DNA from: Gemmatimonadota bacterium
GTDB lineage: Bacteria; Gemmatimonadota; Gemmatimonadetes; Gemmatimonadales; GWC2-71-9
Reading direction: 5' to 3'
DNA: 52,705 nucleotides
Assembly: GCA_003221895.1 (NCBI GenBank)
Contig: QHUJ01000122.1
Span: 1 to 52,705 of the forward strand
Shown here: piece by piece, positions 49,276 through 51,860 of the stretch
How the letters are laid out: each line of letters opens with the position of its first letter
Numbering within the stretch: position 1 is the first letter of the stretch
The notes under the pieces: generated by a model
Database searches by the model: none
Told to the model about the DNA's origin: nothing
Seen by the model: the letters and a program-made list of their open reading frames with translations, nothing else
Program-made: the position numbers and the translations under genes

Positions 49276-50510
<1,235 letters not shown>

Positions 50511-50511
<1 letters not shown>

Positions 50512-50555
50512 CCTCACCCCCTGTCCCCCTCTCCACTTCGTGGAGAGGGGGAACG
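50511..50555. repeat. Left palindromic repeat unit
   Basis: It contains a perfect 12-bp hairpin (50525-50536 with 50540-50551, loop TTC). A partial second copy follows at 50560-50594 with a slightly defective left arm and the same GGGGGAACG end; it overlaps the 3' end of the DUF559 gene. The hairpin could also terminate transcription of the MFS gene, although no T-run follows. Confidence 0.8.
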
Positions 50556-50948
50556 TCAGCCCCTAGCCCCTCCACTTCGTGGAGAGGGGGAACGATGGGC
50601 AAGACTCTGAACCAAGTCTCGTAGCGTTTCCTTCCCAACCTCCCTATTCCGAAGTCGTACGATTTGTAAGCCACTCATTTCAAGACGTTGTGTCCTCGCC
50701 GCGTCGTATTGAACGCGATCTGGGGAGGCGTGGCCTTTGCCGTCGATTTCTAATACCAGCTTGAGCTCGTGGCAGTAGAAATCGACGATAAAGCCATGGA
50801 TGATGTGTTGACGCCGAAACTTGAAGCCGAGCATGCGCCGATCCCGCAGGATCTCCCAGGCTTTGCGTTCGGCGATCGTCAACTTGCGACGAAGTTCTCT
50901 CGCTCGGAGAATCTTGGCTTCTCGCGCCCGACTAACCCAGCGTCTCAT
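50556..50948 (-). CDS. DUF559 protein (PD-(D/E)XK / Vsr-like endonuclease fold)
   Basis: The start is taken as ATG 50948 (130 aa); a TTG at 50975 is possible. RARELRRKLTIAERKAW, then LRDRRMLGFKFRRQH and FIVDFYCHELKLVLEIDGKGH, is the DUF559 pattern. Asp56 and the Glu67/Asp69 group are the likely metal-binding catalytic residues. The C-terminal SPSPRSGGARG is translated from the repeat itself. DUF559 proteins are predicted nucleases with no settled function. It lies on the strand opposite to the MFS gene. Confidence 0.8.
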   Translation of the reverse strand: MRRWVSRAREAKILRARELRRKLTIAERKAWEILRDRRMLGFKFRRQHIIHGFIVDFYCHELKLVLEIDGKGHASPDRVQYDAARTQRLEMSGLQIVRLRNREVGKETLRDLVQSLAHRSPSPRSGGARG

Positions 50949-51003
50949 CGGGACACGGTGCGAGGGAAGGATCAACGAATGGTCACAAACAGATCTTTCC
51001 GTT

Positions 51004-51055
51004 CGTTCCCCCTCTCCGCGTCAGCGGAGAGGGGGCCAGGGGGTGAGGTCAAAAA
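51004..51055. repeat. Right palindromic repeat unit
   Basis: It contains a 12-bp hairpin (51008-51019 with 51024-51035, loop GTCA), then the GGGGGTGAGGTC end. Its reverse complement matches the left unit except in the loop and one core base. A 24-nt part (51032-51055) is repeated directly at 51079-51102, 47 nt further on. Confidence 0.8.
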
Positions 51056-51128
51056 CGGGGATCCGGGCGTGAGGAAAAGGGGCCAGGGGGTGAGGTCAAA
51101 AATGGGTGGTCAAACCGAGGGCCGGCCT

Positions 51129-51860
51129 CTACTCCAACTCCCTAACCCAGATGCTTCGGTATCTGACTGGATTGCCGTGATCCTGCAACTTTAAGGGCAG
51201 CTTGTCGGGATGGACCTTGTACGGCGGTCTCGCTTGATTCGCGGTGGGTCCCACCAGCTCGAAGTTATCCTGAATCAAAATCCCATTGAGAAACACGGTC
51301 ATGCGCGCCGGGCTTTCGAGCGAGCCGTCGGTCTTGAAATGCGGTCGATGGAACACGATGTCGTACGCCTGCCATTGGCCGGGTGGGCGCGTCGCGTTGA
51401 CCAGCGGCGGGTTCTCGCCGTAGACCGCTCCCGCCTGGCCGTCCGGATAGGTGTCGTTCTGGTAAGAATCGAGCACCTGCAGCTCATAGATCCCCATCAA
51501 GAAGATGCCGCTGTTGCCGCGCTCCTGGCTTTCGCCCTTCACGACCGCCGGCGTGGCCCACTCGATGTGCAGCTGCACGTCGCCGAAACCTCGGGCCGAG
51601 ACGAGCATGCCGGTCCCCGGCTTCACTTCGACATAGCCGTCCTTGACGATCCATTTGGCCGCGCTGCTGTCTTGCGCGCGCCACTGGGCCAGGTTGGAGC
51701 CGTCGAACAACACGACCGCGCCGCTCGGCGCCGGCACGGGCGGCCGTTCGGGACCGGGGTTCACGACGGGCGGGCGCGGCCGATCCATCGAGTGTTGGGG
51801 CCACGGTTGCTGCGCTTGTGACATGATCACCAAAGCTAGCATGCCAATCACGGTTTCCAC
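51129..51860 (-). CDS. DUF1080 (3-keto-disaccharide hydrolase-like) exported protein
   Basis: This 243-aa protein has a signal-like hydrophobic N-terminus (METVIGMLALVIMSQAQQ). The fold is a concanavalin-like jelly roll; visible family features are VVLFDGSNLAQWR, the ERGNSGIFLMGIYELQVLDSY segment and the VHPDKLPLKLQDHGNPVRYRSIWVREL end. Members hydrolyse 3-keto-disaccharides or are carbohydrate-linked proteins of unknown role. GTG 51860 overlaps the upstream oxidoreductase by 13 nt, and AAAGGA lies just before it. Confidence 0.85.
   Translation of the reverse strand: METVIGMLALVIMSQAQQPWPQHSMDRPRPPVVNPGPERPPVPAPSGAVVLFDGSNLAQWRAQDSSAAKWIVKDGYVEVKPGTGMLVSARGFGDVQLHIEWATPAVVKGESQERGNSGIFLMGIYELQVLDSYQNDTYPDGQAGAVYGENPPLVNATRPPGQWQAYDIVFHRPHFKTDGSLESPARMTVFLNGILIQDNFELVGPTANQARPPYKVHPDKLPLKLQDHGNPVRYRSIWVRELE

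Follow-up and report, generated by a model that had tools for sequence, protein, structure and literature searches.

A DUF559 nuclease gene between matched hairpin repeats points to a REP/RAYT-like mobile element with a Vsr-like nuclease

In a 52,705-nucleotide stretch of Gemmatimonadota DNA (hereafter the window, meaning the whole stretch analyzed), we found a DUF559 nuclease gene set between two inverted copies of a short hairpin unit. This is probably a small mobile element, built like the REP/RAYT systems but with a Vsr-like nuclease replacing the Y1 transposase, although the part played by the nuclease is inferred. Across the genomes compared, the nuclease gene travels with a palindrome of its own, which is abundant in genomes that have the nuclease. 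The association of nuclease and repeat is observed directly, as is insertion polymorphism; that the nuclease catalyzes the mobility of the repeats is an inference. An earlier note, made from the sequence alone, had likened the locus to a REP/RAYT element with a Vsr-like nuclease, and this remains the best reading of its anatomy, with nuclease-driven movement of the repeats still undemonstrated.

Anatomy of the element

The element occupies positions 50512-51048 of the window (about 540 bp) and consists of a hairpin unit, one intact nuclease gene, and the inverted unit, the 44-bp hairpin unit CCTCACCCCCTGTCCCCCTCTCC-loop-GGAGAGGGGGAACG being present at both ends. The features of the locus are as follows.

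49276-50511, plus strand: MFS gene, nucleoside H+ symporter-type (PF03825), left host gene
50512-50555, plus strand: left terminal hairpin unit CCTCACCCCCTGTCCCCCTCTCCacttcgtGGAGAGGGGGAACG (structure CCTCACCCCCTGTCCCCCTCTCC-loop-GGAGAGGGGGAACG), in direct contact with the MFS stop codon
50558-50594, plus strand: second, degenerate hairpin unit within the left end, also coding for the C-terminal tail of the DUF559 protein
50556-50975, minus strand: DUF559 nuclease gene, Vsr-like PD-(D/E)XK, EDxHD-type, with its domain at 50625-50909
51004-51048, minus strand: right terminal hairpin unit CGTTCCCCCTCTCCgcgtcagcGGAGAGGGGGCCAGGGGGTGAGG, inverse of the left unit
51062-51095 (approximate), minus strand: further degenerate copy beyond the right end, 82% identical to the right unit over 45 nt
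51129-51860, minus strand: DUF1080 gene (3-keto-disaccharide hydrolase, PF06439), right host gene

The TAA stop codon of the MFS gene lies at 50509-50511, with the left unit beginning at the very next base, and the two 32-nt arms (50506-50537 and 51023-51054) have 91% complementarity. The earlier note had described a palindromic unit at each end in opposite orientation, degenerate copies internal to the left end and beyond the right one, and a left unit placed exactly at the MFS stop codon, all of which we found; only its unit length of roughly 46 bp has to be corrected, to 44–45 bp. Terminal inverted repeats, a criterion for IS elements and MITEs, are present here, and direct repeats are seen in some other lineages. 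The site is intergenic, and no intron or intein was seen at it.

The DUF559 gene (PF04480 match, 4e-31, minus strand) is the sole gene between the two terminal units, as had been claimed for a predicted PD-(D/E)XK nuclease; its start is uncertain, either TTG at 50975 or ATG near 50948. The C-terminal tail of the protein, SPSPRSGGARG, is encoded by repeat DNA (the unit at 50558-50594). The earlier note had mentioned peptides resembling SPSPRSGEG at the ends of other DUF559 proteins, and repeat-derived tails are indeed found in the window protein (...HRSPSPRSGGARG), a family relative (...RRSPSPRSGEGVRG), and E. coli YcjD (...NRRSPSP).

The nuclease and related enzymes

Residues E26, D55, E66, D68, H72, D81, R84, R97, and N100 are invariant among 36 proteins and intact in the window protein, whose AlphaFold2 model has a mean pLDDT of 90. 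The nearest folds are 3hrl, a DUF559 protein of N. gonorrhoeae, and 3r3p, the EDxHD homing endonuclease I-Bth0305I (Foldseek 4e-4), with a weaker match to Vsr (1vsr; Foldseek E 0.1, probability 0.97). Judged by these residues, the model, and the nearest folds, the enzyme looks intact, a prediction that no biochemistry yet accompanies.

With the EDxHD homing endonucleases (I-Bth0305I, fractured genes), DUF559 has in common the catalytic fold, the conserved E, D, H, and D residues, and the occurrence as stand-alone mobile nuclease genes, but no intron, intein, or split gene is seen at its site, and the gene lies between matched hairpins in a genome with tens of solo repeats. Of the PADLOC defence models, the window protein gave only a weak homing-endonuclease match and a cyanobacterial homologue gave other weak matches, and PHROG matches name homing endonucleases. 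These database names, together with the folds of I-Bth0305I and Vsr, speak for the main rival explanation, a free-standing homing endonuclease whose targets are the palindromes: it would cut units or gene-end sites and spread into them by recombination, and the solo palindromes would be targets or remnants spread in some other way.

The Vsr very-short-patch repair endonuclease is alike in fold, but the window DUF559 shows no local link to a cytosine methylase and is tied to palindromic repeats. The same fold suits a different rival, in which a domesticated repair or structure-processing nuclease (VSP-like) acts on repeat hairpins and the genomic association reflects a host function and not mobility. 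Consistent with it, Caulobacter VsrA, a DUF559-domain protein, has been linked to the DNA-damage response in cells without a cytosine methylase, and not to mobility (PMC12907096).

Palindrome copies and conservation of the fold

The window genome (3.7 Mb, 250 contigs) contains exactly one DUF559 gene. A search of these 3.7 Mb for the exact stem pattern CCCCCTCTCC-n-GGAGAGGGGG gives 10 matches, versus none for the reversed control, and the 22-nt arm at no more than two mismatches yields about 22 copies; genomes of relatives hold up to 101. A lack of further palindromes in the genome would, by the earlier note, have refuted its reading, and this outcome did not materialize. Solo units are dispersed in the genome, single or as near-palindromic doublets. 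The unit has two forms: the short form has GGAACG at its end, and the other is nearly palindromic, CCTCACCCCC-TGA-CCCCCTCTCC-loop-GGAGAGGGGG-AAC-GGGGGTGAGG, with a conserved internal mismatch; the two look like REP singlets and REPIN doublets. Among 60 distinct copies from the genomes of relatives, the loop-adjacent (innermost) stem pair is variable, with all four pair types found (compensatory changes), and it is Watson-Crick in 54 copies versus 20.4 expected by shuffling. Because this pair covaries, it is the hairpin fold, not the sequence alone, that is conserved.

Several of the solo copies are in-frame insertions inside long open frames (peptides such as PHPLTPSP..GEGE). Comparison with congeners placed the in-gene copies in variable linkers or gene ends, one linker carrying independent insertions in two species in opposite orientations, and resolved no target duplication at them. 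In-frame palindromic insertions in protein genes were seen at loci L014, L015, and L024 of genome G000 and at L167 of G007. Rickettsia palindromic elements (RPE) are similar in being palindromic units in frame inside protein-coding genes, but in the present case a nuclease gene flanked by the unit has been identified; the likeness is not based on sequence comparison.

The resemblance to REP/REPIN sequences and RAYT lies in a single-copy nuclease gene between short palindromes, tens of dispersed singlets or inverted doublets, and a separate palindrome for each nuclease where several coexist (compare PMC3116915). The differences begin with the enzyme, as DUF559 is a Vsr-like PD-(D/E)XK nuclease (PF04480) and not an HUH tyrosine transposase; in addition, the DUF559 gene, as a unit-gene-unit block, sits at different positions in related species, and its units are also found inside genes. 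REP palindromes form two super-families by their tag, GTAG or CGTC (PMC3733652), but the DUF559-linked unit lacks such a tag, neither being present next to the palindrome in the sequences of 22+ copies. With an enzyme of another superfamily and palindromes without the GTAG/CGTC tag, the candidacy of DUF559 as a RAYT was rejected.

A RAYT (Y1/HUH) or some other unlinked enzyme might still mobilize the palindromes, leaving DUF559 as a passenger caught between two copies. Y1 transposases usually act on hairpin repeats, and Y1 proteins are encoded in congeners. However, the window genome, which is 97% complete, has no match to the Y1 transposase family (PF01797) and yet carries about 22 copies, and the RAYT-like Y1 genes of three congeners have GGGGCGCAGCATGCTGCGCCCC as their flanking repeat on each side and in no case the CCCCTCTCC unit, with DUF559 genes showing the reverse. 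We therefore rejected RAYT mobilization of the DUF559-linked units. A passenger would also not be expected to belong to one gene family across at least eight phyla, with a different palindrome each time, and we regard the passenger account in general as very unlikely.

Congeners also contain a second, unrelated GTAG-type REP palindrome, GTAGGGGCGCAGCATGCTGCGCCCCTAC, on both sides of three RAYT-like Y1 genes (L274, L280, and L281). It shares some gene junctions with the DUF559-linked palindrome and was seen at L131 (genome G002), downstream of the MFS gene, and at several other congener sites.

Insertion polymorphism

Comparison of the MFS-DUF1080 junction among relatives, which the earlier note had proposed, revealed empty sites in five congeners: the two genes are adjacent (0 to about 115 bp), with neither DUF559 nor the DUF559-linked palindrome between them. 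One of the five carries a GTAG-type REP at the junction. In genome G006, the DUF559 element is at another site, beside a tRNA gene (the tRNA was read by eye).

Mobility is likewise indicated elsewhere. A ~610-bp element of Anabaena and Dolichospermum is conserved at 90%–95% identity while its flanks differ between species; in each of six genomes, a single complete or almost complete copy is joined by partial matches, 15–71 in all, and the site of one such element is empty in eight other places. Joining the flanks in these cyanobacteria gave empty sites on one side only. Because sites diverge between species, no exact empty site or target-site duplication could be resolved in the species compared. 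Three Deinococcus species (L288, L289, and L290) carry DUF559 in the hpa (4-hydroxyphenylacetate) cluster, at a different point in each, with matched inverted repeats.

Recurrence at DUF559 loci in other phyla

We retrieved 80 DUF559 loci on protein similarity alone, 75 of them testable, from Bacteroidota, Chloroflexota, Cyanobacteria, WOR-3, Nitrospirae, Acetothermia, Spirochaetes, and other lineages, and scored perfect, C-rich hairpins with a stem of at least 7 no more than 350 bp from the domain. Such hairpins were present on either side at 60/75 loci and on both sides at 30/75, versus 40/917 and 0/917, respectively, for shifted windows on the same contigs; about a fifth of the DUF559 loci have no C-rich hairpin nearby. 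The left and right flanks matched each other at 24/75 loci more strongly than the maximum of 1051 control windows. The association at other loci, whose absence the earlier note would have counted against its reading, is thus borne out. The palindrome sequence is lineage-specific (CCCCTCTCC, CCCCCTTCCC, CCCCTCCCC, CCTCCCCC, CCCCTCTTGAGAGGGG, and others). Within the window's phylum, hairpins accompany 21 of 25 short DUF559 genes versus none of seven long-frame (at least 284 aa) DUF559-domain proteins.

These counts bear on whether the pattern is an artefact of chance or composition, GC-rich hairpins such as terminators being common near small genes. Hairpins often follow genes, and 40 of the 917 control windows have one, but none of those windows is two-sided, the left and right sequences match in low-GC genomes, and neither the stem covariation nor the absence of hairpins at the long DUF559-domain proteins fits this explanation. 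Chance hairpins are ruled out by the shifted-window controls, and we give this explanation next to no credence.

A plasmid collection, again sampled by protein only, adds loci from Deinococcus, Alphaproteobacteria, cyanobacterial plasmids, and Neisseria, with 9–10 of 17 above the maximum of 281 control windows. The units of a pair are inverted in the window element and direct or inverted in other lineages. Direct repeats surround the gene in Neisseria, Picosynechococcus, and Anabaena, an arrangement that would suit recombination between units and so speaks for the homing explanation. In Sphingomonas, the DUF559 gene lies inside suf and transhydrogenase gene clusters.

Some 'plasmid' records of 2.2–4.9 Mb in the collection (H2, H21, H27, and H28; E. 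coli and N. gonorrhoeae) look chromosomal. The DUF559 genes of cyanobacterial plasmids (L141–L144) sit in DUF499-DUF1156 or PglX methylase regions resembling defence islands. A Chloroflexi bin contains a 90-bp two-hairpin unit with 85%–89% identity to an Anabaena unit (L107 versus L059), and the DUF559 genes of the two are different; either lateral transfer or binning contamination could account for the likeness.

Copy number and cognate nuclease-palindrome pairs

Among 249 genomes of the window's phylum, with short DUF559 genes called at E<=1e-18, at least 10 palindromes were found in 9/15 of those that have such a gene versus 2/234 others (Fisher p=3e-11, indicative only, as related genomes were pooled in the test). 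Some genomes in which no DUF559 gene was detected are nonetheless rich in the palindrome (G007, 17 copies; G069, 25 copies), so gene loss or a second mobilizer must be assumed for them. Three DUF559-positive genomes from another class of the phylum lack the window-type palindrome and have a different one at their DUF559 genes.

DUF559 is distributed patchily, in 22/249 genomes of the phylum and 12/61 nearer relatives. This patchiness, the insertion polymorphism, and the differing sites in related species are unlike a housekeeping gene, so that, despite the Vsr-like fold and the Caulobacter precedent, we judge the repair-nuclease explanation highly improbable.

Where one genome carries two divergent DUF559 genes (Dolichospermum ST_sed8, G072, G061, and G062), the left-right match within an element is 19–71 in 7/8 elements (L200 scored 8), and the match between elements of one genome is 8–14. 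In four other genomes with two DUF559 genes, the repeats of both elements are alike (14–114 between elements); kinship of those genes was unmeasured. Homing would not by itself spread short units to dozens of unrelated sites, nor would it lead one to expect that copy number follows DUF559 presence or that each nuclease has its own palindrome pair even inside one genome. For these reasons, we consider the homing explanation unlikely, its fold and database support notwithstanding.

Proposed mechanism and wider reading

For a REP/RAYT-like element moved by its own nuclease, we propose that the enzyme would recognize the folded unit, a hairpin or cruciform with the conserved internal mismatch, and would cut or nick there, after which repair or replication may copy the unit, or the whole unit-nuclease-unit block, to new sites, often gene ends. 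Unit recognition, the chemistry, and the copying route are all inferred, without binding or cutting data. Vsr recognizes and cuts at a mismatch in DNA; by analogy, the mismatch of the doublets and the kinship to Vsr suggest a mismatch-bearing hairpin as the DUF559 target, an attractive but untested idea.

More broadly, we lean, with some reserve, toward viewing DUF559 proteins as the mobilizing enzymes of bacteria-wide minimal mobile elements (~0.5–0.7 kb) that gave rise to many untagged GC-rich palindromes, including in-gene repeats and probably E. coli BoxC, and thus as a convergent second solution to that of REP/RAYT through PD-(D/E)XK chemistry. The link of untagged palindromes to specific proteins is an open question (PMC3733652), and DUF559 is a candidate carrier for a large share of the GC-rich palindromic repeats that have no known carrier. 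If the proposal is true, a large domain family of unknown function would gain one, mobility by palindrome plus nuclease would have arisen with two unrelated enzymes, and there would be an explanation for bacterial proteins with tails derived from repeats (SPSPRGEG) or with in-frame palindromic insertions. The question is directly testable with E. coli K-12 ycjD or with the Neisseria protein of solved structure (3hrl).

We found no published link of DUF559 to palindromes in the open-access literature (most subscription journals and bioRxiv lay outside the search), and this class of tiny mobile DNA is apparently undescribed so far. We rate the element as a new kind because it uses an enzyme of a different superfamily and the pattern is found across many phyla; were kinds defined by function alone, it could pass as a variant of the REP kind.

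E. coli ycjD and its linked repeats

E. coli K-12 ycjD (b1289) is a DUF559 gene between sapF and fabI. Repeats of the CCCTCACCCTAACCCTCTCCCC..GGGCGAGGGG type lie 3' of it, with a median of 19 places per genome, and none were found on its 5' side; gene and repeats thus go together as in the window, but the repeats are one-sided. We tentatively take this repeat to be BoxC, going by its sequence type and copy number, with no reference consensus compared. BoxC in E. coli is 56 bp long and present in 32 copies (PMC2267715).

E. coli was considered as a source of an exact empty site and rejected: the ycjD-free strains inspected have an efflux gene cluster (MFS/outer-membrane) between sapF and fabI, and ycjD is therefore not a clean insertion there. 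The interval (L139, L140, L146–L149, and L265) is a variable spot, with ycjD present in it in ~3,300 of 5,426 complete E. coli genomes.
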